From Bacteroides sp. (GTDB lineage: Bacteria > Bacillota > Clostridia > Oscillospirales > Acutalibacteraceae), in assembly GCA_023665085.1 (NCBI GenBank), contig JAMPEQ010000003.1, positions 1 to 64,000 of the forward strand: a stretch of DNA of 64,000 nt, read 5' to 3'. Numbering within the stretch: the stretch's first letter is position 1; every line of letters begins with the position of its first letter. Under the pieces are notes generated by a model. The model was not told where the DNA came from, searched no databases, and saw nothing but the letters and a program-made list of their open reading frames with translations. A program made the position numbers and the translations under genes. Positions 31,177 through 49,337 of the stretch are shown piece after piece.

Positions 31177-31374
31177 CTAATTTGTAGATATTTTTGAATT
31201 AATCCAATTTATAAGATGCTCTTTTGGAATGACCTTCCTTCTGCCCATTTCAATAACCGGGAAGGTATGGTCTTTTTTAATCAGTTTGTATAAGCTGACT
31301 GTTGATATTCCAAGCACTTCTGCTGCCTGAGCAACAGAAAGCATAACAGGTAATTCATCAAAATCCTTATACAT
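31177..31374 (-). CDS. Excisionase-type HTH protein
   Basis: 65-residue MerR-like winged helix of the excisionase DNA-binding family: LSVAQAAEVLGISTVSLYKLIKK...FPVIEMGRRKVIPKEHLINWI. It lies directly upstream of the integrase on the same strand, so it probably directs excision. Confidence 0.88.
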   Translation of the reverse strand: MYKDFDELPVMLSVAQAAEVLGISTVSLYKLIKKDHTFPVIEMGRRKVIPKEHLINWINSKISTN

Positions 31375-31417
31375 AATACTCCTTTCTGCCTGCCGATTAT
31401 TCGTCAGGATTTTTAAT

Positions 31418-32776: not shown

Positions 32777-33185
32777 AGCACTCCTTTGCCAAATCGTTGT
32801 TATATTTTATTGTTTCAAAGTCAATAATTCCATTTGTTTCAGCTACTTTTTCTGCACAGATATTTTGAATTTTATCCGATAATTCATCATCAATTTTATA
32901 AGCACAGCTTAAAATAAAATTCTGTTTTGCTGATTCTACCGCTAATTTGAATATCATTTCTGATAAACAATCCTGTAAAGATTCAACTTGATTCTTGATT
33001 TCATTGCTTATCAGAGGAGTGATATAGTCAGCACTTTGTTTGTGCATAAGGTAGCCGATATAGAAGTTCACCGCTGATCTGACGAATGAACTTCGGTTGC
33101 TGTCATACGAATATGGCAACGCTTTTTCGATTTCTTTTATCATTTCTGGACGCATCCAGAACGAATATTTCTCTTTGTTTCCCAT
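32769..33185 (-). CDS. Ribbon-helix-helix mobilisation accessory protein
   Basis: 138-residue protein with an N-terminal ribbon-helix-helix (KYSFWMRPEMIKEIEKALPYSYDSNRSSFVRSAVNFYIGYL), then helices. Such proteins bind oriT beside the relaxase, in the role of MobC. It is coupled to the relaxase by an 8-nt overlap. The oriT is expected just upstream. Confidence 0.8.
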   Translation of the reverse strand: MGNKEKYSFWMRPEMIKEIEKALPYSYDSNRSSFVRSAVNFYIGYLMHKQSADYITPLISNEIKNQVESLQDCLSEMIFKLAVESAKQNFILSCAYKIDDELSDKIQNICAEKVAETNGIIDFETIKYNNDLAKECYG

Positions 33186-33219
33186 AAATGCCTCTCTTTC
33201 TTACATACGCCTATTATGG

Positions 33220-33404
33220 CGCATATTCAATATTTCTAAAATTCCTTGAAATTCGGTCGGCTCTGCCGTCCGATGTGATTCGTCAGGCGTCATAGCATAC
33301 GCCTGACTTTAACCTGCTTAAAATAATAAATTGCAAAACCTTTGAAAACGAGTTGAAAAGTATCGTCACAAGTGGCGTATATTGGTATTAGGAGTTTATT
33401 TCGG
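33220..33404. other. Candidate oriT region
   Basis: Noncoding stretch upstream of the mobilisation genes with a perfect 9-bp inverted repeat GTCAGGCGT / ACGCCTGAC (33282-33307), a GTCGGCTCTGCCGTCCG hairpin nearby, and repeated GGCG(C/T)ATATT motifs (near 33213 and 33374). The position is right for oriT; no nic site is identified. Confidence 0.4.
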
Positions 33405-33509
33405 TTAGTGACTTTCCCAAAATACAAACTCTGCAAATTCTGCCGACAGCTTTGCGACAGGCTGTTTATTATTTTGAAATGGACAGGCTTTTATATTGTT
33501 TGTCATCAT
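33405..33509 (-). CDS. Possible 34-aa peptide
   Basis: Short frame MMTNNIKACPFQNN... ending FVFWESH, between the mobilisation genes and the decayed HTH gene. The ribosome site is weak. The DNA around its start is one of two copies of a 44-bp repeat (the other at 49070), which suggests conservation. Function unknown. Confidence 0.3.
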   Translation of the reverse strand: MMTNNIKACPFQNNKQPVAKLSAEFAEFVFWESH

Positions 33510-33535
33510 ATTTTAAGGTAGGGGTACATTAAATT
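33492..33535. repeat. 44-bp direct repeat, copy 1
   Basis: 39 of 44 positions match 49070-49113, including GTTTGTCA and TTTTAAGG. It covers the start of the small peptide frame and the stop of the decayed HTH gene. Confidence 0.7.
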
Positions 33536-33860
33536 CTGTTGACCGTATAAATGTTACTTTGCTGCACATTATCACGGTATCTTTCAGAAATATCAATGTA
33601 TCCTTTTTATTTTAATGATGATAACGCCTTGCGACAAGTAGTATCGCATATCCCACAGTAATGAGCCATATTAGGTACTGACCAGTAGCTCTGATTTTTC
33701 TTGTCTTTGGCTCTTGTCAGAAATGAATATACAACAAATTCATTTGGTGTTAGACCTTCATCAAATATTTTATTTGGCAATATAAAATAATTTCCCTTGA
33801 TACTATCAAACCTCCTTTTATATTTTTGGAGAAGAAGTGTGGAATTTTCTTCTTTAATTT
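33529..33860 (-). pseudogene. HTH/replication-initiator-type gene with nonsense mutation
   Basis: Minus-strand frame readable as GNYFILPNKIFDEGLTPNEF, YSFLTRAKDKKNQSYWSVPN and CRKALSSLK, then TAA (33607-33609), then KGYIDISERYRDNVQQSNIY. The winged-helix pattern matches helix-turn-helix proteins of integrative mobilizable elements. The premature stop sits in LK-stop-KGYI, where relatives usually have Glu (GAA to TAA). The true start is not clear. Confidence 0.75.
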
Positions 33861-34258
33861 TTGGTACAATTGATTTTTATTTTGAATAGGTACACGGTGC
33901 TTATAACAGAATAAAAACTCGTTATATCGTCACACTGGGTTTAATAACTTGTTTTATTTATCTTGTTTATATATTACCGTCCACTATGTGACCACATTAG
34001 TCAGATACAAAACCATCAAGAAAACAAGCAAAAAAATTTCCTCTCATATATAGAAAATATGGGGGATATCTTTTTTGGAGTATTGCAGAAATGTTTACAG
34101 ATTGTTCAAAAAGAAGAGGTCAAACAGAAACATCAGATAAAGCAATCATTGAAATCTATGTTCTGTTCAACCTCTCCATATATAAGGACACTAAAATGCA
34201 ATTTGTAAACCAAATTTGTAAAAATTTTAAAAAAATATTTTTACACAGAAAAAGGAAC

Positions 34259-34663
34259 CTATGTCGCCATGAGTTCCTTAAGCTTTTTGATGACACGATT
34301 ATGTCGTTTAGATACAGCCATTCGGCTGATTCCAAAGTGCTACCCGATTTGTTCCATACTCCAATCCTTGTAATAGTACAGATCAATCAATACCTGTTCA
34401 TCCGAACTAAGCATTTGCAGTGCACCTTGCAATTTTTCCAGTTCCATTTTATGAATAACCTCAAGATAGGTTTCGTCAGTATAAATAGGCACTCGCTGTG
34501 AGCCAATGCAGTCCTGTTCAAAAGTTCCTTTACTAAGGTGCCGCCTGTCACTGCGCTCTTGTGCCTGCTGACGCCTCCTGTCCTGTTCAAGATATTCATA
34601 AACTTCATCGGAAATATCTACTTCAATACAATCGTCATCATATTCAATTGTGGTTTTAACCAA
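34259..34663 (-). pseudogene. Sigma-70-like element gene with nonsense mutation
   Basis: Starts MVKTTIEYDDDCIEVDISDE and continues through LSSDEQVLIDLYYYKDWSM-EQIG, then TAG (34340-34342), then in the same frame HFGISRMAVSKRHNRVIKK...LMAT. The two halves together make the sigma region 4-like HTH common in conjugative elements. The stop replaces a residue inside the helix-turn-helix (probably GAG to TAG), so the product is likely inactive. The remaining sequence from 33861 to 34258 shows no gene I can support. Confidence 0.75.
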
Positions 34664-34822
34664 ACCCAGCCTTTCCGTCAGAAAAGCGGTAAGCGTGGCA
34701 TAGCCGAAACAGTACCACAGCTGTCAATTCCTCAGCGTTTCGCTATTATTATCAGGATTGCAATGGCGGCAGCCAAGAAATCTAAGGTTGAACGAATTAC
34801 AACCTTACCGACTATTTTATTT

Positions 34823-34840
34823 CATTAGCACAAGCTAATG
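34823..34840. repeat. Short perfect hairpin
   Basis: CATTAGC-ACAA-GCTAATG in the 355-bp gap between the sigma-like remnant and the STAND gene. There is no T-run on the minus side; its role is unknown. Confidence 0.5.
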
Positions 34841-34931
34841 ATATTTATATTGTATTCTATTATTATTTTTTGTCAACAAAATTTTTTAATGTGATTTTTT
34901 TTGCGAGTAATGCAATTTTATAGTATTGTCA

Positions 34932-34940
34932 TGTTATAAT
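34932..34940 (+). promoter_or_regulatory. Extended -10 promoter for the STAND gene
   Basis: TGTTATAAT (TGn-TATAAT) about 80 nt upstream of the start; the -35 region is poor. Confidence 0.55.
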
Positions 34941-35019
34941 ATCTTATATTCCTTTATTCCTTGTAAAATTTATCATTTGCTTATATAATATTAACAACAA
35001 TGTAATGGAGGATAAAATA

Positions 35020-38000
35020 ATGAAAGTTACTTGGCAACAATTTGAATATTATAATCCTGATACTACAAGTGCATTTGAAAATTTATGTAGGCTTTTATTC
35101 AAAAGAAAGTTTTTTAATAAAGAGATGATATTACATTCAAATCATAATAATCCTGGTGTAGAGGTTGAACCTGTTTTTTGCCCTAAAATCAGAAAAAATA
35201 TAAGCTTTCAAGCTAAATATTTTGAAAAATTGAATTATTATCAGATTAAGCATTCTGTTGAAAAAACTGTTGAGTATTATGCTCAAAAAATAGATGCTCT
35301 TTATCTTTATTGTAATAAGGATATTTCTACAAACAGTCAAGCTTACAAAAAGATAAAAAACATTTTGCATTCAAATAATATAGAACTAGTTTTAATAACA
35401 AATCAGGAAATATTAGATGATGTACAATTAGATCCAATATTAATAAGTGGTTATTTTGGTAGGCCCTCCTTGTCGAGAAATTGGTTTGAAGATAGGTTGA
35501 GAGATAGTATTGAATCATTGGGTTCTAGACACAACGAATTTAATGTTCCAACGAGTGAGGAAGACTTTCTTGATTTGTTTACCCAAAGTAGTAAGTCGAT
35601 AGATTACATAAATACTAAAATTATAAATGCTGTTGATGAAATAAAGCATCATAAAAGCAAAGTTCCTAAATATACACTTTTATTAAATCATATATCTGAA
35701 AAGATATCCAATATTAAAAAGGTGAATTATGCAAATGTTTGTGAATGCTTACAATGGAAAGATATAATTTATAATGAATTTAAAGATGAATTTAAGAAAA
35801 TCGAGGCTGCAGTTTCTGAAAAAGAAAAGTTATTGAGTACAGTTAATCGGGAGGAGAAAAATAGTAAATATGAGGAAATACAAAATTTAAATTGGATTTT
35901 AGACATACCATATAAGTTGTCTTTAACAAAGTATGAAGAAAATTTGTTAGCAAAGAAATGCTTAATAATAAAAGGTGATGCTGGAACAGGAAAGACACAG
36001 TTATTATCGAATAAAGCTGAAGAACTTATCAATGATGGAAAATTTGCAATTTTATTGTTAGGACAGAATTTTATATCAAGTGTTATGTTTTCAAATCAAA
36101 TATTATCATATCTGGAATTTGATGGTAGTATTGATGATTTGTTAAATGCTTTTGAATGCCTCGGTGAAGAAAACGATTGTATGATTTCAATATTTATTGA
36201 TGCACTTAATGAAAGTACAGATAGAACAATATGGAAAAGAGGTCTAAATTCGTTTTTAAACAAAATTGAAAAGTACAATCACCTGAAACTTGCAATATCA
36301 ATTAGAACCGGATATGAATCTTTTGTTTTTGATGATTCAGTGAATAAAAAATTAGCGCAAGACAATATACCAAGACTAATACATCGTGGCTTTTGGGAAG
36401 ATACAATTGATAAGATGAGAACTTTTTTGGATTATTATCAAATACCATTTTCGCCATCCTATTCTTTGAGCTATGAAATGACAAATCCTATGTTCTTAAA
36501 ACTGTTTTGTGAAACATATGATGGTGAAAAGTTAGATATGTTTTCGTTATTTGAAAGGCTTATAAAAAAAGTTGATAAAGAACTTAAAGAAGTGTTTAAA
36601 ATTGAAAGTGATTTGGATTTATTAACAAATTTACTGAGTGAAATTATAGAATATCAATTAATTTACGGGACTAGAATTTCTGCGAATGATTTGTTAAATC
36701 TATCTTTTTGGAATACTTATGGTTTAAATGATAAAAAAGTGCAATATATCTCTGTTGCAAGCAGAACTAGTATATTAAATAATTTTGCAAAAGAGGATAC
36801 TGAATATTATTATTTAGGTTATAACCTTTTAGAAGATTTTTTAACTGCAAAGCTTATTTTTAATCAGTTTACTAATAAAAATAAGCTAATAGACTATATT
36901 AAAAATGATTTATTAAAAATTGTAAATGATGACATTTCCAATTATGGTAATATTGGTGCTTTTGTTGTTCTTTGCAGTTTGATTTATAAGCAATATAAAG
37001 AAGAAGTAGTTGAAGTATTTTTAAGTTCTATAAAAGATGATTCAACTAGAAGTAGTATTATAGAATCTTATATAGAATCATTTCAATGGAGAACAGAGGA
37101 TTCAATAAATAGTGAAATTTTTCTTGAATTTATAAATAAATATAATGTTGAAAGGGATTGTATTTTTGATGTTCTTTTTCAAAATGCAGTTAAAATTAAT
37201 AATCCATTAAATGCGGATTTCTTGCACAACATATTACTTAATAAATCATTATCTCATCGTGATTATTTATGGACAACATATATCAATAATTATTTAGGAG
37301 ATGAGAGCAGAATTTTTCAGTTAATAGAGTTATTTGAAAAAGGAAATACATTTGATGATTTTGACAGAGAAAGTATTAGGTTGATACTTGTTTTATTTTC
37401 TTGGCTATTAACATCTTCAAACAGATATCTGCGAGACATAACATCAAAAGCTATTATTGAAATTCTAAAAGATAATTTTGATTTGTGTTTGGATTTATTA
37501 GGAAAATTTGAAAATGTAAATGATCCTTATGTAATACAAAGACTTTATGGAATAGTGTTTGGCGCTTGCACGAAAAGGATTGACCTATGTAAAAATGATT
37601 ATAAATTATTAGTTGAATATGTGTACAATACAATATTTAATAAAGAATTAGTTTATCCAGATATATTACTTAGAGATTATGCTAAACTTATAATTGAAAG
37701 ATATGTTTATGAATTTAGTATAGACGAACTAAATATTGATGTTAATAAAATTTATCCTCCATATAAATCTATAGAGATACCAATTGTAGAAAAAGAAGAA
37801 TATTACAAAGAAAAAGATTATTGTAGTGGATTCAATAGAATTGATATGTCAATGAGACCTGCATGCAAGAGCCATATGTATGGCGATTTTGGAAGATATG
37901 AATTTGAATCTGCACTAAATGAATTTGATGGTGTAGATGTTGAAAATGTTTACCATTATGCTATGCAGTATATTAAAGATGAATTGGGATATGATGATGA

Positions 38001-39189
38001 ACTCTTTAGCAATTATGATTGCAACATAATTGGCTATAGATATAGAAATGAAACTAAAAAAATTGAACGTATAGGTAAGAAATATCAATGGATTGCAATG
38101 TATAATATACTTGCTAGAATTTCTGATAAACATTTACTCGATAATTATAATGATGATGCTCAACCTTATCAAGGTACCTGGGAACCATATGTTCGTGATT
38201 TTGATCCAACAATAAATTTGCATTTTTTAATATCAGATAAAACTCCAACATTCAAGTTTAAAGATTTTGATTTTGAATTGTTATTTACTAATTCTGATAG
38301 TGATGATGAAATTCGTAAATGGGCAAAAACTGAAATTGAATTCTTTTCTGAGCATAAAAATGATTTGTTATTAGAAGATAGTGATGGCAATGAATGGATT
38401 TTATTACATCAATATCAAAAAATAGTAAATAAGAAATATGAAGAAACCAAGGAACACTCAATTTTATCAAATGGTAATCAAGATATTTGGAAAATGTCAA
38501 GAGGATATTTAGTTGATAGTAGTATTTTTGAAGAATTTAAATCATCCTTGCAAAATACAAATTTTTTAGGTAGATGGTTTCCTGAAATTAGAGAAACATA
38601 TCAATTATTTAACAGAGAGTATGCTTGGTCAAATGGATATAATAGCATTTTTTCGGATTTACAGTTGCAGTTTGAAGTAGATAATGGTGAATTTGAAACT
38701 GTAAAGTCAATTGCTCTTAAACCAGTCTTTGATAGTGAAGAAATCATTCTAAAGAGTTTTGAGGTTGAGCGTGAGGTTCCAATAAAAAAATATATTGGAG
38801 AAGTTACACAATCATTTCTTATATATTTATGGGAATGCCAATATGATGCATCACAAAATGATGCTACTACTCTATATGTTCCATGTAAGAAAATAATTGA
38901 TTGTTTTAATTTAAAACAAAAGAAATATGATGGATATTATTACGATGAAGATATTCTTGTAGTTTATGATGGAAGCAATTCAGGTATTGATAGTGGATTA
39001 TTGATAAGAAAAGACTATCTTATTCAATTTTTAGAAAAAAGCAATATGAAATTATTTTGGACATGTCTTGGAGAAAAACAATATTTTCGAGGAGATAAAA
39101 ATCAAATATGGAGCGAGTGGAGTGGATTTCTTTATCTAAACAATAATGGCAATATAGAAGGTTCTATGAAATTCAAAAAAATCAAATAG
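35020..39189 (+). CDS. Avs-like STAND NTPase with nuclease-like N-terminus
   Basis: 1389-residue protein built like antiviral STAND ATPases. The N-terminal domain (about 1-150) has a PD-(D/E)xK pattern, NPGVEVEPV...ISFQAKYF, with an acidic residue then Q-A-K, as in Cap4/Mrr-type nucleases. After a helical linker comes the NTPase: Walker A GDAGTGKT (319-326), Walker B ISIFIDALNE (about 391-400) and a sensor arginine region (LAISIRTGYESF). A long helical-repeat region and a C-terminal part with IERIGKKYQWIAMYNILARIS would form the sensor. GGAGG 8 nt upstream selects ATG 35020. It stands alone. Phage-protein sensing is inferred from family resemblance. Confidence 0.72.
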   Translation: MKVTWQQFEYYNPDTTSAFENLCRLLFKRKFFNKEMILHSNHNNPGVEVEPVFCPKIRKNISFQAKYFEKLNYYQIKHSVEKTVEYYAQKIDALYLYCNKDISTNSQAYKKIKNILHSNNIELVLITNQEILDDVQLDPILISGYFGRPSLSRNWFEDRLRDSIESLGSRHNEFNVPTSEEDFLDLFTQSSKSIDYINTKIINAVDEIKHHKSKVPKYTLLLNHISEKISNIKKVNYANVCECLQWKDIIYNEFKDEFKKIEAAVSEKEKLLSTVNREEKNSKYEEIQNLNWILDIPYKLSLTKYEENLLAKKCLIIKGDAGTGKTQLLSNKAEELINDGKFAILLLGQNFISSVMFSNQILSYLEFDGSIDDLLNAFECLGEENDCMISIFIDALNESTDRTIWKRGLNSFLNKIEKYNHLKLAISIRTGYESFVFDDSVNKKLAQDNIPRLIHRGFWEDTIDKMRTFLDYYQIPFSPSYSLSYEMTNPMFLKLFCETYDGEKLDMFSLFERLIKKVDKELKEVFKIESDLDLLTNLLSEIIEYQLIYGTRISANDLLNLSFWNTYGLNDKKVQYISVASRTSILNNFAKEDTEYYYLGYNLLEDFLTAKLIFNQFTNKNKLIDYIKNDLLKIVNDDISNYGNIGAFVVLCSLIYKQYKEEVVEVFLSSIKDDSTRSSIIESYIESFQWRTEDSINSEIFLEFINKYNVERDCIFDVLFQNAVKINNPLNADFLHNILLNKSLSHRDYLWTTYINNYLGDESRIFQLIELFEKGNTFDDFDRESIRLILVLFSWLLTSSNRYLRDITSKAIIEILKDNFDLCLDLLGKFENVNDPYVIQRLYGIVFGACTKRIDLCKNDYKLLVEYVYNTIFNKELVYPDILLRDYAKLIIERYVYEFSIDELNIDVNKIYPPYKSIEIPIVEKEEYYKEKDYCSGFNRIDMSMRPACKSHMYGDFGRYEFESALNEFDGVDVENVYHYAMQYIKDELGYDDELFSNYDCNIIGYRYRNETKKIERIGKKYQWIAMYNILARISDKHLLDNYNDDAQPYQGTWEPYVRDFDPTINLHFLISDKTPTFKFKDFDFELLFTNSDSDDEIRKWAKTEIEFFSEHKNDLLLEDSDGNEWILLHQYQKIVNKKYEETKEHSILSNGNQDIWKMSRGYLVDSSIFEEFKSSLQNTNFLGRWFPEIRETYQLFNREYAWSNGYNSIFSDLQLQFEVDNGEFETVKSIALKPVFDSEEIILKSFEVEREVPIKKYIGEVTQSFLIYLWECQYDASQNDATTLYVPCKKIIDCFNLKQKKYDGYYYDEDILVVYDGSNSGIDSGLLIRKDYLIQFLEKSNMKLFWTCLGEKQYFRGDKNQIWSEWSGFLYLNNNGNIEGSMKFKKIK

Positions 39190-39334
39190 TTGGGATAATT
39201 ATCAATAAGTTAGAATTGACTTTATAGTCTTATAAAATAGAGGTTTAATCAGATTATGATTAGGCTTCTATTTTTATTCTAATTAAGACTTGCAATCAAT
39301 TAGAAACAGAGTTAACATACGAAAAAAAACAAAA

Positions 39335-39356
39335 CCGTTGGTGAGTACACCAACGG
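39335..39356. terminator. Terminator after the STAND gene
   Basis: CCGTTGGTG / CACCAACGG with a 4-nt loop and CTTTTT shortly after. The rest of the 388-bp gap to the next gene is AT-rich with no gene visible. Confidence 0.75.
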
Positions 39357-39375
39357 CAATTACTTTTTCGCAGAA

Positions 39376-39391
39376 TATCCACATAAATGAA
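39376..39391 (+). repeat. 16-bp inverted repeat, left of recombinase 2
   Basis: TATCCACATAAATGAA, exactly inverted at 40736-40751, so the pair brackets the second tyrosine recombinase gene. Confidence 0.75.
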
Positions 39392-39577
39392 CAGTAAATT
39401 TAATGATTTTCTTTTCAAATTATGTGTATTTTTAAAAATTATATCAAATATTTATGCATATTTCAACATATTTGTTCATATATAGGGTTATTTTGTATTG
39501 ATTTATTTTTATTTATGGTCAAATATTTGGTATTCATTTTAGAATATATCTGTGCTTGCACAGAAAGGGTGATGAAT

Positions 39578-40654
39578 ATGCCAAGACGAGGCGAGAATAT
39601 TTACAAGCGTAAAGATGGCAGATGGGAAGCAAGATATGTCAAAGAGGTTTTACCTAACGGCAAGAAAAAGTACGGATCTGTTTATGCTGATAACTACAAG
39701 GATGTCAAGGTTAAACAACAGCAATGCCTATTACATCCAACGAAAGCAGTTTGTAATTCAATGAATATGACTGTTAATGTTCTGATTGCAGAATGGCTTG
39801 ACAGTATTAAAAATCAAGTTAAACCAAACACTTATCAAAAATATGAAAGTGTATGTAAAAATCATATAGTTAATGAGATTGGCTCAGTGTTAGTTAAACT
39901 GATTTCAAATTATACAATTATCAATGTCACAAACAAACTTAAAGAAAAGAATTTATCTGCTAAAAGCGTTAATGATATTTTAATTGTATTGGGTTTAGCT
40001 TTTAAGTATGCAGAGGAAGAATATGAAATAATCACACCAAGAATTCGTTATCTTAAAGAAGAAAAGAGGGAAATGAGAGTGTTGTCTGTAAATGAGCAAT
40101 TACAATTAACAACTTATCTTAATCTAAACATTGATATTTACAAATTTGGAATTCTGCTTGCGCTATATACTGGCATCAGAGTTGGCGAGCTTTGTGCATT
40201 ACAATGGGATGATATAACTGACGACTATATTCAAATTAACAAAACTATGACAAGAGTGAAAACAGATAATAAAACAGCAATTAAAATCGGTTCACCTAAA
40301 AGTGACAGTTCAAAAAGATTAATACCTACACCACAATGCTTGCTGCCATTAATAAGTCAATTAAAAAGTATAGGTTATGTATTATCAACGGATAAATTAG
40401 ATTATACCGAACCGAGGTTAATGCAAATTAAGTTTGAAAAGATAATTGCAGAATCAGGTTTAGAAAAGACTAATTTTCATGTACTCCGTCATACCTTTGC
40501 AACACGATGTGTTGAAGCAGGTGTAGATGTTAAAACCTTATCTGAAATACTTGGTCATTCAGATGTTAAAACTACACTCAACAGATATGTTCATTCATCT
40601 TTTGAATTAAAGCAAAAGAGTATGAAACAGTTTGAATTATCCTTAATTTCATAG
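39578..40654 (+). CDS. Second tyrosine recombinase
   Basis: Phage-integrase-family recombinase of 358 residues. It starts MPRRGENIYKRKDGRWEARYV, an AP2-like arm-binding region, followed by a core-binding domain. The catalytic domain has YTGIRVGELCALQWDD (Arg), HVLRHTFATRC (His-x-x-Arg) and LGHSDVKTTLNRYVHSS (His, Tyr nucleophile). The frame is open to 39422, but AAAGGGTG selects ATG 39578 (or 39572). Exact 16-bp inverted repeats flank it, and terminators lie on both sides. It may serve its own small element, be a relic of an earlier insertion, or invert the DNA between the repeats. Confidence 0.88.
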   Translation: MPRRGENIYKRKDGRWEARYVKEVLPNGKKKYGSVYADNYKDVKVKQQQCLLHPTKAVCNSMNMTVNVLIAEWLDSIKNQVKPNTYQKYESVCKNHIVNEIGSVLVKLISNYTIINVTNKLKEKNLSAKSVNDILIVLGLAFKYAEEEYEIITPRIRYLKEEKREMRVLSVNEQLQLTTYLNLNIDIYKFGILLALYTGIRVGELCALQWDDITDDYIQINKTMTRVKTDNKTAIKIGSPKSDSSKRLIPTPQCLLPLISQLKSIGYVLSTDKLDYTEPRLMQIKFEKIIAESGLEKTNFHVLRHTFATRCVEAGVDVKTLSEILGHSDVKTTLNRYVHSSFELKQKSMKQFELSLIS

Positions 40655-40667
40655 TTATAAATAAAAC

Positions 40668-40718
40668 AATAACCGTCAGAATTATGGTCAGCAAATGCCG
40701 TAATCCCTGACGGTTATT
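40668..40718. terminator. Terminator after recombinase 2
   Basis: AATAACCGTCAG / CTGACGGTTATT, a perfect 12-bp stem with an AT-rich flank. Confidence 0.75.
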
Positions 40719-40735
40719 ATATTATTTATCCCTTT

Positions 40736-40751
40736 TTCATTTATGTGGATA
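40736..40751 (-). repeat. 16-bp inverted repeat, right of recombinase 2
   Basis: Exact inverse of 39376-39391. Confidence 0.75.
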
Positions 40752-40802
40752 ATAAATGAATAGATGTATATCGGTAAATGAAAAGAAAGGGAAATTTTTA
40801 TT

Positions 40803-40958
40803 ATGAAAAAAGAAATAACTCCAGATATTGAAAGAACATTAAAAAAAGAATTAAAGCATCAAAACAGAATGGCTGAAATTAAAATTAGTCGTGGTAATTT
40901 AGATAGTGCTGATTTTAATATCAAGAAAGCAAAAGAAATTGCAGATCGTTTAAAATAA
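40803..40958 (+). CDS. Small helical protein, 51 aa
   Basis: Frame MKKEITPDIERTLKKELKHQ... ending KEIADRLK, highly charged and helical, with GAAAGGGAA about 8 nt upstream. It sits between recombinase 2 and the dynamin/HerA operon. It could be a small regulator or excisionase-like partner of the recombinase; no family is recognised. Confidence 0.5.
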   Translation: MKKEITPDIERTLKKELKHQNRMAEIKISRGNLDSADFNIKKAKEIADRLK

Positions 40959-41027
40959 ATCAATTAAGTATGTCAATATGCATCTATTCACTAACATTAA
41001 ATATACAGATAATTTTGAAAGGAAATG

Positions 41028-41192
41028 TTAGTGTGAAAAATTACACTGCTCCGATTATACACCCTCAAAATTTGCCTAAAGCATAATTTTGAGATGGTTA
41101 AATTTCCATTATACGCCTTGTCTGGCTACAACGAGGCGAATAGGTGATTTTTAATAAACTATTTGTAGCCAGAAAGGCTATGGAAATTATTA
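41028..41192 (+). repeat. 165-bp palindromic repeat, copy 1
   Basis: Noncoding repeat about 91% identical (about 14 mismatches, no gaps) to the inverse of 51405-51569. It contains a GTGTGAAAAATTACAC hairpin, CTCAAAATT...AATTTTGAG, and a long palindrome from AATTTCCAT to ATGGAAATT with GTCTGGCTACAA/TTGTAGCCAGA arms. It ends exactly at the start codon of the next gene, so it forms its whole 5' region. Confidence 0.85.
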
Positions 41193-41914
41193 TGCAAGAA
41201 ATTAATGAAATTAAAGTTAACAACATATTTGATGATGAAAGATTTCAAATAAAAAAGGAAATTGATCAAATCTACAAAAAAATTGAAAATGATATTATTG
41301 AGGATAATGTGGCTATTGAGAATATGTCAACCAACGAATCTGATGAACTTGAAAAATGTATTGATAAAGTCAATTACAATTTGAAGGAAAAGCTTTTAGT
41401 GGTTTTAGAAGAACTTGAAATTCCAACAGAGGCAATAGAGATTATTTGGTCAAGAATAAAGAGAAGTGTTGATTATCCTCAAATTAAGTCGTGTGGTACC
41501 GAAAAAATATCATATAGTGATTTGATAGAAAATTCGAAAGAAGAGTATTCTGATAATCAGGAATTTGAAAAATATAAAATGATCAGAAATATTAGTGGCA
41601 CGGTAGCAGGCATTACAGGCATAACAACAGTACTGTTGCTTATGGTACCTGCATGGCGAGAGATAAGTGCGATAATAAAAATTGCTGATTCTGTCTTATG
41701 TGTCGGAAGCTCTGCTTTAGCCGTATATTCGCATTCAAAGTACAATAATATGGCTAACAGTGATTATATACCTGAATTTACCATTAATGATTACATCAAA
41801 GGTGTTTGCAATGATCAGGCAGATTTAAATAAAAGCGCTATTATAGATTGGCTTGATAAAGTTAGAGACGCATTTATAAAAGAATGTGAAAATGAAATGG
41901 AATATTACCAATAA
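41192..41914 (+). CDS. Two-helix membrane protein of the dynamin/HerA operon
   Basis: 240-residue protein, no family recognised. An acidic helical region (about 1-125) precedes two hydrophobic segments (SGTVAGITGITTVLLLMVPAW, about 133-155, and ISAIIKIADSVLCVGSSALAVYS, about 157-180), then a soluble tail. ATG 41192 is chosen (GGAAA 7 nt upstream); the frame is open to a GTG at 41144 inside the palindromic repeat. It is first of four closely spaced genes (gaps of 12, 21 and 13 nt). It may anchor the complex at the membrane. Confidence 0.65.
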   Translation: MQEINEIKVNNIFDDERFQIKKEIDQIYKKIENDIIEDNVAIENMSTNESDELEKCIDKVNYNLKEKLLVVLEELEIPTEAIEIIWSRIKRSVDYPQIKSCGTEKISYSDLIENSKEEYSDNQEFEKYKMIRNISGTVAGITGITTVLLLMVPAWREISAIIKIADSVLCVGSSALAVYSHSKYNNMANSDYIPEFTINDYIKGVCNDQADLNKSAIIDWLDKVRDAFIKECENEMEYYQ

Positions 41915-41926
41915 GGAGTTCATTGA

Positions 41927-42859
41927 ATGAAAAATATTATACTGGTTGATTATGATTGTAAAGAGATATGGAAAGACAAAGAATCAATAAAAGATATCAT
42001 TAGCGAGAATTGTGAAGAAGTTGTATTTTTGGAAGATTTAAAAGATTATTCTCTTGAAGAATTCAAGAATTCAAGAATTCAAAAGTGTTTTTTATTAACA
42101 AAATTCAAAAATGGAGCAATGCGATATCACGATGATTTAGTATTAAAAAATCCATATTTTAAATGTTGGTTTGTTGTAGCGCTTGACTGTCATAGCGATT
42201 ATTTTAAATCTCAATTTGTATCGCAAGTTGATTCTTTATTTTATGCAAAAAATTTAATGTACCATATTATTTTTGATGACAAAAGATTAATTGAAACAAT
42301 AAAAGAATGTAAAAGAGAATTAGATAGCAAGAAAAAATTTTTTATTGTTTCAAAAAATAAAAAAATCATTAATAGGTGCGAAAACATAATGACAAAGTAT
42401 TTATCACAGAACGATTGGGATATTATTACATATGATGATATTTTAAGTGACACTTACAATATAGCCGAAAAAATTCTTGTGGTTGGAGAAACATCGGAAG
42501 ATTTTGTAATAAATCCACCAGTATATAACAAAAGAAGAGTTAAACTATGGTTGAACATACCAATTGGACAACCATTTGATATTACGATGAAAAGTATTAG
42601 TGAAATACAGGTAAAGATGAATGAATGTGGATGGAATATTGCAGATTATTCACATTGCACATATTACAGTAATGAAATCTATGAAGAATTTTTATCAAAA
42701 ATTAGGAATAATGAAATGACTTATTTGTCACTGAAAGACAATGATGATTTTGTAATATGGGACAAATATCTATTACCAATAAGCAATAGTGAATATACAA
42801 TTCAGAATATAGAAAGTTTTTTAAATGATTATTGTTGTTTTGATAAAATAGCACAGTGA
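41927..42859 (+). CDS. Unknown two-domain protein of the dynamin/HerA operon
   Basis: 310 residues. The N-terminus reads MKNIILVDYDCKEIWKD, like the first strand and acidic pocket of a receiver or other Rossmann-type fold. A second alpha/beta unit begins near KKKFFIVSKNKKIINRCENIM (about 135-155) and ILVVGETSEDFVI. No catalytic motif is recognised. AAGGAG precedes the ATG. It is the second gene of the operon; it may bind a nucleotide or pass a signal to the GTPase encoded next. Confidence 0.55.
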   Translation: MKNIILVDYDCKEIWKDKESIKDIISENCEEVVFLEDLKDYSLEEFKNSRIQKCFLLTKFKNGAMRYHDDLVLKNPYFKCWFVVALDCHSDYFKSQFVSQVDSLFYAKNLMYHIIFDDKRLIETIKECKRELDSKKKFFIVSKNKKIINRCENIMTKYLSQNDWDIITYDDILSDTYNIAEKILVVGETSEDFVINPPVYNKRRVKLWLNIPIGQPFDITMKSISEIQVKMNECGWNIADYSHCTYYSNEIYEEFLSKIRNNEMTYLSLKDNDDFVIWDKYLLPISNSEYTIQNIESFLNDYCCFDKIAQ

Positions 42860-42880
42860 TCGAAAAAGGAGAGTATAACT

Positions 42881-45460
42881 ATGAAATTTGGGGATTTATT
42901 AAAAAAAGCAAAGTCACAAAATAATACCACTAATGGTGAGCGTGAAAAATTGGAGGATTTTCAGGAAACGATTGGTTTAGAATCAAACGGAGAAGCTGAC
43001 AAATTTATTACAAGTCTATATAATACTACATCGGCATTATTGCAGAGCATAAAGCCTATTATTGAGAAGTATAATTCTGATGTTTCCGATAAAGCATATA
43101 CAAATACTGTAAAGGCTTTGGAAAATCTTAAGGATTTTGAATATAACATCGGTTTTGCCGGTGAGCAATCTTGTGGAAAATCAACCCTTATAAATGCTAT
43201 TATTAAGTATCCTCTTATGGCAACCTGTAACTTACCAACTACAGGAAATGTTGTTCAATTGAAATATGGAAAAAATATACATATATCAGTTTTTGACAAC
43301 AAAGAAGAACTTGTAAAGGATTTTAATTGTTCGAATTTTTCAACAACCCAGTATAATTCGCTTCTAAGCTATATTTGTGCTGTTATGCCTATAATGCTTA
43401 TTGAAAATATATGCTATTTTACCGATAAAATAAATACAGAGGATTTGAATTCTAATGATATTGCCTCATTTGAAAGCGTCAAACTTAGTCCCTCTGATAT
43501 AGATATGAATAATGACAATCCAAAACACATAGCAATTTTGTTGTTGATTTTGTTATCGGTTTATGTTGGAGAGGACAATAGAGAAATTGCAGATGCTGAT
43601 AAAAGGCATCTCATCGATTTAAGGACGAAAACATTTAAGTTTTTTGGTTTAAACGATTCTATAAACTATTCTATTACTGTTCATTGGAACAGCCCATTTT
43701 TGAAGCAAGGATTGGTAATTACTGATTTACCCGGTCTTGGTGCAAGAGCAAAAGAGCATGACAATATAACTCAAAAAGCTATTGAAAAAACAGATGCAAT
43801 TGCGTTTATAGCGACTCCAGAGTTGCGTAATGCAGGTACACCCGTATTAGAGAATTTGTTGTCAAATGAAGATTTGAAAGGTGTTGTAAGCAAGAATAAT
43901 AGAATCGTTCCTATCATAAATCAAGCTGACAGATTAAATAAATCAAATGCGATTCAGACTATAAATGAATTTTTAGGGGTTTTCAGCGCGAGTGGAATAG
44001 AAATGGAAAAAGATAATATTCATTTATGTTCTGGACTTTATGGTGAATATAGCTATGCTTCCAATGAAATACCCTTGGAAAGAACGATGTTCTATAACAA
44101 AAACTCGAACTCACCATTTTTAAAATATTCTCAAGATGATCCTAAATTAATTATAAAAGAAATGCTAAAAAAAGAGTTTGACAATTCTGGAATAAATAAA
44201 TTGAATACATTCTTTTACACAACTTTTATAGAAAAAGGTAAATTCAGTAAGTCCGTAGAAGTTTTGAATGCAGTAAAGAGTTTATATATGACAACGGCAT
44301 TCAGAATGAAAAATGATGAAAAGAATTTTGCTGCTTCTTGTGAAATTGATGCAAATTTATTAGCAGATATTAATGGGAATGCTCAGCGTAGAATAACTAA
44401 AATAACATCCGATAATATAAAAACAATTGATAGAGAATTAGATAAAATAAAGAACGAGACTATAAAGAGCATCGAAAAAGAATTAAAGAATCTTCCTGTA
44501 AAATATGATGAAATGATTCAAACTTCTTTTTCTCAATACAAGAATAATTTAATGGAAATTATCAAGAAACTTCCATTTAACAATCTCTTGCATTTGAATT
44601 CGTGCTGTATAGAGAAGCCAGATGCAAAAAAAGTTTATGAAGAGCTTGTGTCTGCTAAAAGCAATGTTCCTATAGAATTTAAAAATGTAAATTTTTTATT
44701 GAAAAATATATTTGAAATTGTAACAATTAAAGTAAATGAAATGTTTCTTTCCGAAATCAAGATTTTAGATGCATCACATAAAACTATAGTCGAACAGTTG
44801 AATTTAAATAATGAGTATGAAAAGAATGCAGATGCCGCAATCCATATTGATTCCTTAAAACAATCAATGATTGGTCACATAGATGAACAAGTCGTATTGG
44901 CAAATGCTGCATCTGAAAATAAACAAAAAGAAATTATAAATTTCAGTAGTGAAAGTATTCAAAAAATAATTAATCAAAATAATCAAGTTGTACAAATTAT
45001 TACAGAAGTTCTGTCAGAGCAAATAGATGTCGCCTCAAGAGATGGAATGTTGTTTGATATGGGCAAAAGATATCTAGTTGTTGATGGTAATAGAGGTATA
45101 AAAGGGAAAGTTACCACTTTAAAATTACCTGATGAAATTTATGCACCGGTAATTAACGATATTTATCTGTCGATTAGAGAGAATATTAAAATTTGGTTAA
45201 GGGAAACAGTAAATTCTATATCAGGAGTTAACGAAGACTTTAGACACGAGGTTGCCGAGCAAATTAAAAAGACTACTGTTATTATGAAGGAACAAGCTTT
45301 TGACAAAAAAACTTATTTGAAAGAACTTCATGAAAATTCAAATACCCTTACTTCAGAATTTTCACAGTATAATAAAAAAATACTTCCTGAAATTAAACAA
45401 GCTATTAAAATCTCAGGTGATAATGATTTGAAAAATTTTAAAGGAAATTTGTTTAAATAA
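42881..45460 (+). CDS. Dynamin-like GTPase
   Basis: Large GTPase of 859 residues. The P-loop is GEQSCGKS (94-101), a switch I Thr lies in NLPTTGNVV, the G3 motif is DLPGLG (282-287) and a G4-like IINQADRL lies near 350. The G domain has a large insertion between G1 and G3. The remaining 450 residues or so are helical and coiled, as in bacterial dynamin-like proteins that form membrane stalks. No transmembrane helix is visible, so membrane contact may come from the first gene's product. It sits directly upstream of a HerA-type ATPase, a pairing I do not recognise from named systems. Confidence 0.8.
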   Translation: MKFGDLLKKAKSQNNTTNGEREKLEDFQETIGLESNGEADKFITSLYNTTSALLQSIKPIIEKYNSDVSDKAYTNTVKALENLKDFEYNIGFAGEQSCGKSTLINAIIKYPLMATCNLPTTGNVVQLKYGKNIHISVFDNKEELVKDFNCSNFSTTQYNSLLSYICAVMPIMLIENICYFTDKINTEDLNSNDIASFESVKLSPSDIDMNNDNPKHIAILLLILLSVYVGEDNREIADADKRHLIDLRTKTFKFFGLNDSINYSITVHWNSPFLKQGLVITDLPGLGARAKEHDNITQKAIEKTDAIAFIATPELRNAGTPVLENLLSNEDLKGVVSKNNRIVPIINQADRLNKSNAIQTINEFLGVFSASGIEMEKDNIHLCSGLYGEYSYASNEIPLERTMFYNKNSNSPFLKYSQDDPKLIIKEMLKKEFDNSGINKLNTFFYTTFIEKGKFSKSVEVLNAVKSLYMTTAFRMKNDEKNFAASCEIDANLLADINGNAQRRITKITSDNIKTIDRELDKIKNETIKSIEKELKNLPVKYDEMIQTSFSQYKNNLMEIIKKLPFNNLLHLNSCCIEKPDAKKVYEELVSAKSNVPIEFKNVNFLLKNIFEIVTIKVNEMFLSEIKILDASHKTIVEQLNLNNEYEKNADAAIHIDSLKQSMIGHIDEQVVLANAASENKQKEIINFSSESIQKIINQNNQVVQIITEVLSEQIDVASRDGMLFDMGKRYLVVDGNRGIKGKVTTLKLPDEIYAPVINDIYLSIRENIKIWLRETVNSISGVNEDFRHEVAEQIKKTTVIMKEQAFDKKTYLKELHENSNTLTSEFSQYNKKILPEIKQAIKISGDNDLKNFKGNLFK

Positions 45461-45473
45461 TTGGAGAAATTAA

Positions 45474-48341
45474 ATGAAAGAAAACCAAAAGTCAACAATT
45501 GAAAAAAGCATAAACAATCTTAATGTTTTTTTAGATTATGAGCCTCATAAAGACAAAGATAAAATGGAAAAAGTCCAAGGAATTCTTGAAAATATGAATT
45601 TGGGAACCCTTGAGGAATCAAATATCAAAATTAATGATTTAATCGACGATTTAACCGATATTTCAAGTTATAGCTTACCTTTAGAAGATATTGCATATAA
45701 GACGAATTTGGCGATTAAGCGTCTGGGTAAAGAAAAAAATGATGAAAAAAATAAAGCTCAGACTGAAAAGCCATTAGTAAAAATGGCAAGAATTTTGTCT
45801 GCTTATGAAGAGGATTTTGCAATAAGCGTTATTTCCTCAAACAATAATGGAAGACCTTCAATGAATTTTATTGTTTCAACAAACGATGAAAGCAATAGCA
45901 ATATTGAAGCTATGGTAAATGGTGGGTATGGAAGAGTTGAAGTACAGAATTTTAATGATTTTCCTGATTTCACTATTAAACCAATTTACGCAATAGGAAA
46001 ATTTGTGAATCGGGACAAAAGGGATATTAAGCATGTCTCCGAGAAAGATTACAGTAAATTTGAGTCATGGACTTCATCTATATTGTCATCTATGCCTGAA
46101 GATAAAAACTATTGTGTAAAAATTCGTTTTTCTCCAATAGAGGATAATAGTGAAATAGAAAGAATATACGAGAGTCTGAATGGATTTTATAAGAAAGTTA
46201 AATTCTATTCTGAATTCAGTTGGGGTAATTCTCAAACCACAGGTGTGGCAAAAAATTTACGGGAAAGCAAAGGAAAAGAGTTTTCTGATGCTGTAAAAAA
46301 GTGGATTACTTCATTATATAAGCATTCATTTAATTATTCATCAGCATATTCACTTTCAAGCAAAGATATTAACAAAAAATTTGCTATTATAGCAGATGAG
46401 ATTGAATATGAAATGCTGAGATTGGAGCGTGGTATAAATTCAAAACTTTGGAATGTTTGTATAAGTGTTGAGGCTAACGATGAAAATACACTGCAAAGTT
46501 TAACTTCCATTCTATCCGGTGTCTTACAAAATGCAAATCTAAAACTTGATTGGTCATTAGAACCAAGAAATGCACTTGTTGGCTCTACAGTAGAAATATT
46601 GTCATTAATGTTTTTCCCGACAAAAGAATTCCCGGGCTTTGAATTTGTTGAAAATGAAGAGTTTTCTCTTGTTTCTCCAGCAAACATAAATGATGGATTT
46701 GAAATAGGTAAAATATTATGGAACGGTAAGAATATAGATGATTTTTATTTTTCAAAAAATGCATTGAATCGGCATGGTTTCATTTGTGGAATGACCGGTG
46801 CAGGAAAAACTAATACATTATTTAACATTATTGAACATATAGATATGCCATTTTTGGTAATTGAACCTGTAAAAGGAGAATACAGATCCTTGCAAAGTTC
46901 ATATTCCGATATGAATATTTACGTAATGAAAACAGGATTTGGAAATTCTAATGCCGAATTATTGCGTGTTAATCCTTTTTGGTTCCCGGAGAATGCCAAT
47001 CTTGCGTTTCATATAGACAGTATAAAAACTATTCTTGCATCGGCATTTGAGTTAACTGCCGCAATGCCTAATATTCTGGAGCAATGTCTTTATAACATAT
47101 ATATTAAATCTGGATGGGATCTGGTTTCAAATAAAAACAGATATGCTGGTAAATTACCTGAGGAATTTTTTTATCCAACCTTTAATGATTTATGTAATGA
47201 GATTGAATTCTATCTTAATAACAGTGATTTTGGTGCAGAAACTTTAGGAGACTATAAAGGTGCATTATTAACAAGATTAAGATCTTTTATAAATGGTTTT
47301 AAAGGAATACTTCTTAATACAAACGAGCATCCTGATTATGAAAAACTTATGTCAGGAAGAAGTGTTATAGAACTTGAAGGATTGGCTGATGATGCGGACA
47401 AATGTCTGGTTATGGGAACCATAATTGTTCAGTATTATGAATATCTAAAGTTGAATTTTAAAGACAATGATAAACAAAATTCATTAAAGCATCTTATTGT
47501 AATCGAAGAAGCTCATAGATTATTCAAAAATGTAAAAAAGAACAATAATCAAGAAACTGCTGATCCAGCAGGACAACTCGTTGAAACATTAAGCAATATT
47601 ATGGCTGAAATCCGTGCTTTCGGTGAAGGTATACTTGTAGTTGATCAAAGTCCTACCAAAATCGCAGAAGATGTAATTAAAAATTCAGGTACTAAAATTA
47701 TTCACAGAATGGATAATGAAAAAGATATTAAGATTTTACAGTCGTCATTACTTTTGAATAATGATTTAACTAGCATTCCTTCACTTAAGCAAGGAGAAGC
47801 ACTAATCCGAACAGAAGGAATGTTGAAGCCTTGTAAAGTTAAGATTTTTCGTTCAGATGTTAAAGAAGCATATTCTCTTTCATATTCTTTTAATACTAGC
47901 AGTATTAAAATTGAAAATGTTGAAAATATATTTGCGGCTGCTTCGATATTTTCTAATGAATTTTTACGTTACGAAGTTCAAAATAGCATAATAGATTATC
48001 TTAATTGGTTTGACGAATTTAAAGAAACAAATGATTGGTATGAAATAACATATCAGTTTATAATTGTTTTAATATATATAATAGATTATTATCAGATGAC
48101 CGATTATCTTAATAACAAAGCTGATGTTTTATTTAATCTTGTATATTTAGTAATAAAGAATATGTGTTTAAGTAAAAAAGATATAGGATATTTGCTTATG
48201 CTTTTTAGAAAAACATTTGATTTTTACCTTTATAGTAAAAATGGAGGTTTTATAAAAAAAGGAGCAATTGAATTGTTAAAGAAGTATTGGCTTTATAATA
48301 TAAAACATATATTGGAAGAACAATTACAAGAAAATTTGTAA
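45474..48341 (+). CDS. HerA/FtsK-type ATPase (DUF87)
   Basis: 955-residue ATPase. An N-terminal region of about 430 residues has alpha/beta and coiled-coil parts. It precedes the HerA core with Walker A GMTGAGKT (439-446), LVIEPVKGEYRSL, Walker B HLIVIEEAHRLF (about 673-684), and the sensor stretch EIRAFGEGILVVDQSPTKIAEDVIKNSGTKIIHRM. A helical C-terminal domain of about 150 residues follows. HerA-type ATPases form hexamers that move DNA or regulate bound nucleases. It is the last gene of the operon, 13 nt after the GTPase. No nuclease domain is seen in it. Confidence 0.8.
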   Translation: MKENQKSTIEKSINNLNVFLDYEPHKDKDKMEKVQGILENMNLGTLEESNIKINDLIDDLTDISSYSLPLEDIAYKTNLAIKRLGKEKNDEKNKAQTEKPLVKMARILSAYEEDFAISVISSNNNGRPSMNFIVSTNDESNSNIEAMVNGGYGRVEVQNFNDFPDFTIKPIYAIGKFVNRDKRDIKHVSEKDYSKFESWTSSILSSMPEDKNYCVKIRFSPIEDNSEIERIYESLNGFYKKVKFYSEFSWGNSQTTGVAKNLRESKGKEFSDAVKKWITSLYKHSFNYSSAYSLSSKDINKKFAIIADEIEYEMLRLERGINSKLWNVCISVEANDENTLQSLTSILSGVLQNANLKLDWSLEPRNALVGSTVEILSLMFFPTKEFPGFEFVENEEFSLVSPANINDGFEIGKILWNGKNIDDFYFSKNALNRHGFICGMTGAGKTNTLFNIIEHIDMPFLVIEPVKGEYRSLQSSYSDMNIYVMKTGFGNSNAELLRVNPFWFPENANLAFHIDSIKTILASAFELTAAMPNILEQCLYNIYIKSGWDLVSNKNRYAGKLPEEFFYPTFNDLCNEIEFYLNNSDFGAETLGDYKGALLTRLRSFINGFKGILLNTNEHPDYEKLMSGRSVIELEGLADDADKCLVMGTIIVQYYEYLKLNFKDNDKQNSLKHLIVIEEAHRLFKNVKKNNNQETADPAGQLVETLSNIMAEIRAFGEGILVVDQSPTKIAEDVIKNSGTKIIHRMDNEKDIKILQSSLLLNNDLTSIPSLKQGEALIRTEGMLKPCKVKIFRSDVKEAYSLSYSFNTSSIKIENVENIFAAASIFSNEFLRYEVQNSIIDYLNWFDEFKETNDWYEITYQFIIVLIYIIDYYQMTDYLNNKADVLFNLVYLVIKNMCLSKKDIGYLLMLFRKTFDFYLYSKNGGFIKKGAIELLKKYWLYNIKHILEEQLQENL

Positions 48342-48602
48342 GATAATATGTATTAGGAATTTTACAATGATTTAGCATGCCGAATAAATGAGATTAACAA
48401 TATGAACCAATTAATATCACAAGAATAGTTATATGATATGTCATATAGCTTAATTAAGAAAAAGGCAATTCTTATAAAGATAGTAGTTGATTCTTGGAAA
48501 TATTTTCATATTTCAAGTGGGCGAGTATATAAATCATGAAAACTTATCAAAGTGTGAAGCAATAGCTATGATGATAACGGAGAAATGAAAAAACGGAGTT
48601 AA
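48342..48602. other. Degenerate gap after the HerA gene
   Basis: AT-rich 261 bp. One frame reads EFYNDLACRINEINNMNQLIS, then a TAG, then LYDMSYSLIKKKAILIK, which looks like a broken small gene, but I cannot identify it. No terminator is evident. Confidence 0.4.
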
Positions 48603-48983
48603 ATGTATATGGAAAATAAACAAAGTTATTATGATCGACTGAAGTTATTAATTGGAAAGTGTTTTGAAGGTATACTCAAATGGACAGAAACAGAGGAAGA
48701 TACCACTTATTATAGTGGATACTATTTTAAAATTCCCGAGGGAAATAATATGGGTTGTGTCAGACTGATTAATCCGAGTGAAGCAGACAGACGACTTGAA
48801 ATTTTCGTGACTATCGGAGATACGGATTACAAAGTTTCTTCTTACACTTCGAAGTGTAATAGCATTGAAGAAATGCGTACGTATCTCAAAGACGAAAGTA
48901 ATATTGCTGAAGTTGCAGACATAGTTGTCGATTTGAATGAATCAGCAGATAACAAGAGCAGTGAATATCCATTTTGGAGTTGA
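48603..48983 (+). CDS. Hypothetical protein, 126 aa
   Basis: Small acidic soluble protein with no recognised domain. It has alternating strands (YYFKIPEGNNMGCVRLINP, RLEIFVTIGDTDYKVSSY) and a helical end. GGAG lies 4 nt before the ATG, and a second Met is two codons on. It is the last gene before the right end of the element. It could be an orphan immunity or regulatory protein; nothing specific supports that. Confidence 0.55.
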   Translation: MYMENKQSYYDRLKLLIGKCFEGILKWTETEEDTTYYSGYYFKIPEGNNMGCVRLINPSEADRRLEIFVTIGDTDYKVSSYTSKCNSIEEMRTYLKDESNIAEVADIVVDLNESADNKSSEYPFWS

Positions 48984-49069
48984 AATTATTAATAATGTAA
49001 CTTTAGTTTAAAAGGCTTCTACATTTGAGAAGAGGACCAATCAATAAGTAAAAAATAAGATAGAGTTTG

Positions 49070-49113
49070 TATATTGTTTGTCAACAGATTTTAAGGCAGG
49101 GGTACTGTAAATT
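49070..49113. repeat. 44-bp direct repeat, copy 2
   Basis: 39 of 44 positions match 33492-33535. It lies near the right attachment site, next to a terminator-like hairpin. Confidence 0.7.
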
Positions 49114-49137
49114 ATGCAGTGAATCCCTGCCTTTTGT
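49093..49137. terminator. Terminator-like hairpin near the right end
   Basis: AAGGCAGGG / CCCTGCCTT 9-bp stem with a 23-nt loop, followed by TTGTGTT. It overlaps the 44-bp repeat. Confidence 0.5.
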
Positions 49138-49159
49138 GTTATCAGATATAATTTTTAAC

Positions 49160-49179
49160 GACCACTTATTGACCATTTA
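49160..49179 (+). promoter_or_regulatory. Right arm-type integrase site (candidate)
   Basis: GACCAC...GACCATTTA with an 11-bp offset, the same spacing and orientation as at 27042-27061 inside the left end. Confidence 0.5.
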
Positions 49180-49291
49180 TTATCGGAAGACGGTTTATAA
49201 AGAGAGTGCTGAATGAAAAATCAAGCAAGAATTGTATAAAAGAAAGCACTGAAAATCGTTAAAAAGCATTAGATTTATCTATTCAGAGCTG

Positions 49292-49337
<46 letters not shown>

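Follow-up and report, generated by a model that had tools for sequence, protein, structure and literature searches.

Few functions are known for bacterial dynamins, and HerA ATPases are generally assigned to DNA repair or nuclease defense. In the HerA-effector defense pairs, HerA occurs with a nuclease, SIR2, or DUF4297. These pairs, the Eleos system (LeoA-LeoBC), the GAP1-N2/DO-GTPase/tubulin-vWA systems, and type VII secretion are the described systems with which we compare an operon that joins a dynamin to a HerA ATPase. The operon lies at positions 41,192 to 48,341 of a 64,000-nucleotide (nt) stretch of contig JAMPEQ010000003.1 (assembly GCA_023665085.1, a gut-type bacterium), the whole of which is called the window below, and it encodes in order a small membrane protein (g1), a predicted double pseudo-GTPase (g2), a dynamin-like GTPase (g3), and a HerA-type ATPase (g4). 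The four-gene set is real and rare. Rather than a guard of phage DNA entry, the role toward which a sequence-only reading of the locus had leaned and which found no support here, we favor a membrane-anchored conflict machine whose family handles toxins or exports them. That g1 to g4 form one such membrane-anchored nucleoside triphosphatase (NTPase) machine, in a family that probably moves or exports toxins, is put forward tentatively, and we hold it at slightly less than an even chance.

A four-gene operon and its relatives

All four genes are intact, co-directional open reading frames (ORFs) of the + strand, separated by gaps of 12, 21, and 13 nt, and an orphan ORF lies 3' of them (lengths in amino acids, aa):

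41192..41914, + strand: g1, small membrane protein, 240 aa from ATG, with two hydrophobic segments
41927..42859, + strand: g2, double pseudo-GTPase by predicted structure, 310 aa
42881..45460, + strand: g3, dynamin-like GTPase, 859 aa (Pfam Dynamin_N, 9.5e-16)
45474..48341, + strand: g4, HerA/FtsK-superfamily ATPase, 955 aa (Pfam HerA_C, 7.6e-9; DUF87, 2.4e-5)
48603..48983, + strand: orphan ORF of 126 aa, 3' of the operon

g3 is a dynamin of the BDLP/SynDLP/mitofusin type. Its GTPase motifs (GEQSCGKS, DLPG, and NQAD) are intact, its structural model (predicted local distance difference test, pLDDT, 80.8; predicted template modeling score, pTM, 0.61) has helices of up to 98 residues, and a Foldseek search with that model matched SynDLP (9e-18), BDLP (2.4e-15), LeoA (4aur, 3e-7), and also Mfn1; both hallmarks of the dynamin superfamily, the GTPase motifs and the long helical bundle, are thus present. 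In g4, Walker A (GMTGAGKT) and Walker B (LIVIEEAH) are intact, further matches were obtained with the PADLOC HerA model (8.2e-21) and in a profile comparison with the solved HerA 4d2i (1.4e-13), and the long N- and C-terminal parts matched no family. The confident model of g2 consists of two G-domain-like folds in tandem (residues 1-132 and 133-310); the protein has no P-loop and carries a conserved C-terminal motif around WD..GLP....Y, and we confidently model it as a double pseudo-GTPase. The layout of g1 is a soluble N-terminal part, two hydrophobic segments close together (134-152 and 158-176), and a soluble C-terminal part, with an uncertain start, the frame being open from a GTG at 41144 and 41144 or 41180 being the alternatives. 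Neither g1 nor g2 matched any Pfam family above noise or, by sequence, any solved structure significantly. The segments, the g2 model, and the Pfam families agree with the sequence-only description of a two-helix membrane protein, a two-domain protein, a dynamin GTPase, and a HerA ATPase.

Some smaller features accompany these genes. An inverted repeat (TCTGGCTACAA / TTGTAGCCAGA, 41121-41173) flanks the upstream start codon of g1 and is a possible operator or RNA hairpin. Near the operon in two related loci (numbered with the prefix L throughout), ORFs of 145-146 aa (L019:5298-5735 and L020:14190-14630) resemble each other by eye and are similar to half of g2. The 126-aa ORF matched no family above noise in Pfam, PADLOC, or NCBIfam and only itself among the ORFs of 65 loci; considered as an immunity protein, it was rejected, having neither family nor relative. 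A promoter scan of the window found 53 sites against 54.3 expected, and terminator-like sites numbered seven against 2.4 expected, none of which clearly ends the operon.

Relatives were collected by scanning 84,980 species genomes with a HerA profile and two degenerate patterns, which gave 47 loci, and genes were called there with iterated profiles for all four proteins. The complete set, g1 to g4 in order, is present at 12 of these 47 loci, fetched by HerA alone (L020-L030 and L032), a recurrence that makes the gene association more than chance. About 11 of the 12 are distinct, L021 and L026 being near-copies; L019, L031, and L033 start inside the set at a contig end, and g1 of L028 is located 2.9 kb ahead of g2. 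When 391 genomes of the class were searched with g3, three matched, namely the window's own genome and two others (G416 and G101, judged by gene layout and length to be the same contigs as L024 and L032) that carry all four genes in order. The g2 profile matched three of the 391 class genomes and one of 398 family genomes, the window's own counted, each time inside the four-gene set. Single-sequence searches found no g3 relative in viral contigs, phages, or plasmids; no g2 relative was found in plasmids, and the g4 profile had no match in viral contigs.

A tree of 56 HerA ATPase domains, made by a quick search without bootstraps and including several long rows, places the 16 HerAs of four-gene loci (window included) on one side of a branch with a Shimodaira-Hasegawa-like approximate likelihood ratio test (SH-aLRT) value of 100. 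The co-occurrence that the sequence-only reading proposed to look for is therefore borne out, both in the complete loci and in this single clade. HerAs with a dynamin and no g1 or g2 match account for four changes on the tree, three of them forced by its starred branches, and form the groups L006/L039/L043, L034/L059, four Actinomycetota, and L065; the dynamins were called by iterated profile, with a Pfam check outside the window in L006 only. At L034, L059, L043, and L006, a small protein with a hydrophobic segment and no sequence match to g1 lies between dynamin and HerA, and inside the four-gene clade an extra dynamin is found 3' of HerA in L028 and L033.

Toxin and immunity genes beside related loci

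SUKH proteins are the usual immunity proteins of polymorphic toxins. We treated 26 loci as dynamin-linked, namely the 15 loci L019-L033 (L031 counted though its dynamin would fall beyond the contig end) together with L006, L034, L035, L036, L038, L039, L041, L043, L051, L059, and L065, and searched all of them with the toxin sequences themselves. A polymorphic-type toxin stands beside or inside the gene set at 12 of the 26, or at 11 of 25 if L051 is left out, a locus with a weak dynamin score (2.5e-4) that counts as dynamin-free in the tree. The toxins are LHH nucleases (L034, L039, L043, and L059), WHH/colicin-DNase nucleases (L006, L023, L029, L030, and L051), and papain-fold (amidase) proteins (L028, L031, and L032, the last 153 nt after HerA and added by hand). 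Ten lie downstream of HerA, that of L023 upstream of g1, and that of L028 between g1 and g2. Next to the toxin, eight loci have an immunity-type ORF, which is DUF6985 in L006 and SUKH-type in L023, L029, L030, L034, L039, L043, and L059; the Pfam count of seven SUKH ORFs suggests that L051 has one as well. In L023, which belongs to the same branch as the window copy, the WHH ORF (9e-30 to that of L029) is followed by the SUKH-type ORF. Proteins with an HExxH motif occur in L027 (just before g1), L029, and L030. The absence of a visible nuclease, which the sequence-only reading had noted, holds for the window's four proteins and does not extend to the relatives, where nuclease and amidase toxins, mostly with immunity-type genes, point to toxin biology.

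The two sides of the gene set were compared with Pfam. The downstream alignment (A5) holds 30 ORFs from 19 of the 26 dynamin-linked loci, omitting L022 (next ORF a peptidase by eye), L027 and L036 (nothing co-directional within 150 nt), L035 (at a contig end), L038 and L041 (unreliable ORFs in GC-rich sequence), and L065; the upstream control (A11) holds 32 ORFs from 16 loci, at most two per locus. Downstream, LHH was matched four times, WHH four times, and Gln_amidase twice (10 toxins), and SUKH_5 seven times. Upstream, none of these toxin families was among the matches listed (25 of 31 families), and SMI1 was matched once. The contrast gave Fisher values of 0.0003 and 0.02, on rows that are not independent. 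That sole SMI1 match is the immunity-type ORF of L023, whose toxin ORF lies outside the control set, so the contrast makes the association look weaker than it is, and toxins also occur elsewhere than downstream. At dynamin-free loci (A6: 30 downstream ORFs, 19 loci, omitting L007, L008, L015-L018, L037, L040, L050, and L056), the corresponding matches were WHH/colicin-DNase three, DUF6985 two, and SMI1 one. A common leader joins the WHH ORF of L029 to L030:14429-15292 over 73 N-terminal residues (45%, 8e-13), the latter ORF having HEVGH and no Pfam family. None of 16 toxin-type ORFs of relatives has a transmembrane-like segment in a 19-residue window, a scan that a short signal peptide could escape.

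The mobile element and the competing explanations

The operon sits, as the sequence-only reading had it, on a mobile element near a defense gene; the ORFs, their gaps, an attachment (att) repeat, and Avs2 all confirm this setting:

26862..49309, no strand: integrative element, with the att repeat of a split tRNA at its two ends (26862-26882 / 49289-49309)
35005..39189, + strand: Avs2 antiviral STAND protein (PADLOC, 1e-217), context outside the operon
39422..40654, + strand: tyrosine integrase (Pfam Phage_integrase, 5.2e-25), context

The element measures ~22 kb, with the operon near its right end and Avs2 upstream of the operon. The 21-nt repeat at 26862 and 49289 comes from a tRNA anticodon region and is identical at 20 of 21 positions. 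A tRNA-Thr(CGU)-like gene is split by the element in its anticodon arm (window 26837-49340), its 5' part lying before 26882 and its 3' part at 49294-49340, and an intact tRNA-Thr(CGU) just inside the left end (26918-26993) probably replaces it. Among the element's genes are a MobL relaxase, two tyrosine integrases, and a transposase with rve and HTH_21 domains. A 50-nt direct repeat (86%; 33489-33538 / 49067-49116) may bound a second, nested element comprising integrase 2, Avs2, and the operon. Near the other end, 27205-28578 encodes a 457-aa protein without Pfam or PADLOC match, the C-terminal part of which is possibly nuclease-like by eye.

Because toxin and immunity genes so often stand beside its relatives, the operon probably encodes a weapon or defense machine. 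In the toxin-handling machine that we favor, the four proteins would form a complex acting at the membrane, in which g1 would be the anchor in the cytoplasmic membrane, g3 would assemble on that membrane and deform or open it, g2 may act as a scaffold or regulate the GTPase step, and the HerA ring of g4 would act as motor and thread or pump a polymer. Transport would be directed to or across the membrane, the cargo in the family most likely being a toxin protein that bears a short leader at its N terminus, and the family would amount to a toxin-mobilization or export apparatus that accepts plug-in toxin/immunity cassettes; the window copy may have a cargo that escapes recognition or may have been turned to another use such as defense. 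A bolder version, which we consider doubtful, is that of an undescribed class of secretion or membrane delivery, in which a HerA motor and a membrane-remodeling GTPase (a dynamin in this operon, in sister systems tubulin or another GTPase) would move leader-tagged toxins, the window's branch having added a dead double-GTPase regulator and been recruited to a defense-carrying mobile element. A conserved pairing of dynamin and HerA in several phyla, often by toxin/immunity cassettes, would give both proteins a shared and testable role and, if true, could reveal a route for soluble toxins into other cells. The four-gene form would offer biochemistry a compact set of anchor, pseudo-GTPase, dynamin, and ring motor.

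A series of observations weighs against toxin export as the family's role. In the window, no toxin or immunity ORF was found when 543 frames were searched at E 1 with 21 toxin, immunity, or similar neighbor proteins of relatives and four profiles; SMI1_KNR4 (PF09346) was absent from the window's genome in a controlled search, and Colicin-DNase, Gln_amidase, and the toxin of L023 were not found there in searches without a positive control. With no toxin beside it, the toxin reading for the window copy rests on homology, and the copy itself lies near Avs2 on a mobile element, a setting typical of defense systems. Within the four-gene clade, nuclease or papain-type toxins occur at six of the 15 loci (seven with the HExxH protein of L027), and among the window's eight nearest relatives L023 alone has one. 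Other near relatives carry Sel1-repeat, metallophosphoesterase, or other genes: Sel1-repeat proteins are found 3' of HerA in L020, L021, L023, and L026, and related, calcineurin-like metallophosphoesterases downstream of the set in L019, L020 (~5 kb away), L024, and L033. Three pairs of loci are close (L029/L030, L031/L032, and L021/L026), the leader of the WHH toxin of L030 recurs just once more in that genome, at a neighboring ORF, and the toxin and immunity proteins could work intracellularly. The upstream control is imperfect, as it includes the SMI1 match of L023 and the HExxH protein of L027, and the comparison set consists of upstream ORFs of relatives rather than of unrelated operons.

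Avs2 and the mobile element make anti-phage use likely enough to be weighed first. An Eleos-like dynamin membrane device with a HerA motor would then block DNA entry or open the membrane on sensing a phage. We take it seriously as a rival, although on the whole we think it unlikely. The integrases on the same element as Avs2, the partial likeness of g3 to LeoA (9.4e-13) and the weak match of g1 to LeoBC (5e-5) in PADLOC, the matches of g4 to HerA models of defense systems, the patchy distribution of the gene set, and the failure to find a toxin in the window are all consistent with it. The toxin/immunity pairs of relatives, including one pair from the branch of the window copy, argue the other way, since a pure defense device would not need immunity-type proteins, as does the lack of g3 relatives in the phages, plasmids, and viral contigs covered by single-sequence searches. 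The PADLOC matches around relatives also count against it: across 109 flanking ORFs of 14 related loci they were few and scattered, with 16 models reaching E 1e-10, of which 15 matched a single ORF each. In this count, which had no matched control, the defense-island enrichment that the sequence-only reading proposed to look for was neither shown nor disproved.

An intracellular abortive machine, in which the dynamin/HerA device would release a toxin-antitoxin pair on damage or infection with no export, seems to us improbable; it would suit the 16 toxin-type ORFs with their lack of transmembrane-like segments, and runs against the exchangeable C-terminal toxin domains that mark polymorphic toxins in the passages of PMC3482391 drawn on here. 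We regard as quite improbable a machine for element maintenance or DNA transfer, with HerA pumping the element's DNA and with dynamin and g1 keeping that DNA at the membrane. The MobL relaxase and the two integrases would fit such a role, as would the match of g4 to the DNA-translocating ATPase CedD (NCBIfam, 1.8e-23, with 83 bits where the cut-off is 600) and the HerA relatives on 63 plasmid records out of 72,556, for which the matches listed cover no more than 53% of g4. It leaves the toxin/immunity genes unexplained, L021 and L026 adjoin SecG-like and RNase R-like ORFs (by eye), and the 32 upstream ORFs of 16 loci include one integrase (Pfam, among the matches listed).

Comparison with described systems

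Among the PADLOC, NCBIfam, and Pfam entries, none corresponds to the four-gene set, and a literature search, with most subscription papers and bioRxiv outside its reach, recognized no description of it, in keeping with the sequence-only claim of a gene set different from those of known systems. The likeness to Eleos lies in g3, whose LeoA match is partial and whose model ranks LeoA behind SynDLP and BDLP. Its homologs reach 5e-5 with LeoC/LeoBC in L013 and match no Leo model in L014; the window operon adds a HerA ATPase and a double pseudo-GTPase. Eleos has a second GTPase partner (LeoBC, or LeoB and LeoC), for which there is no counterpart here, g1 belonging to no GTPase family and g2 having no P-loop; membership fails because a second nucleotide-competent dynamin is missing. 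A LeoBC remnant in g1 was considered and rejected, since the window copy is the only one of three scanned g1 proteins to score, the homologs in L013 and L014 matching no Leo model, and the score is probably helical noise.

With the HerA-effector pairs, the operon shares a HerA-type ATPase with intact Walker motifs that the PADLOC HerA models match, and g4 differs in being longer, with parts that have no family match. No nuclease, SIR2, or DUF4297 match was found in g1-g3 or the 126-aa ORF with Pfam, PADLOC, and NCBIfam, and membership in these pairs fails because an effector was not found.

The GAP1-N2/DO-GTPase/tubulin-vWA systems are likewise membrane-near GTPase machines, of Firmicutes and Actinobacteria, and differ in using tubulin or double GTPases; in the passages of PMC7159879 drawn on here, dynamin appears nowhere and HerA once, in a reference title. 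Loci such as L017, where Tubulin_2 and vWA proteins and a related HerA precede an LHH ORF, look similar to those systems. L017 is one of four loci from same-genus genomes (L015-L018) in which HerA is clustered with Ser/Asp-rich proteins, with LHH profile matches in L015 and L017 and with tubulin-like and vWA proteins Pfam-confirmed in L017 alone; these clusters look like a sister machine. In L042, a related HerA accompanies proteins weakly like DO-GTPase2 and GAP1-M (below cut-off) before a WHH ORF, with a weak fn3 match, and L040, where HerA follows large proteins, is organized similarly, judging by gene sizes. A relationship of g2 to the DO-GTPase-like protein of L042 was rejected, there being no profile similarity (hhalign probability 0.2).

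Type VII secretion, for its part, ties an FtsK/HerA-superfamily motor to toxin export in Gram-positive bacteria (PMC3482391, in the passages used). The loci studied here differ from it in having a dynamin, and no WXG or other type VII secretion family is among the matches listed for their neighbor ORFs. No name was found for the four-gene system, which we file as a variant within the NTPase-centered bacterial conflict systems.

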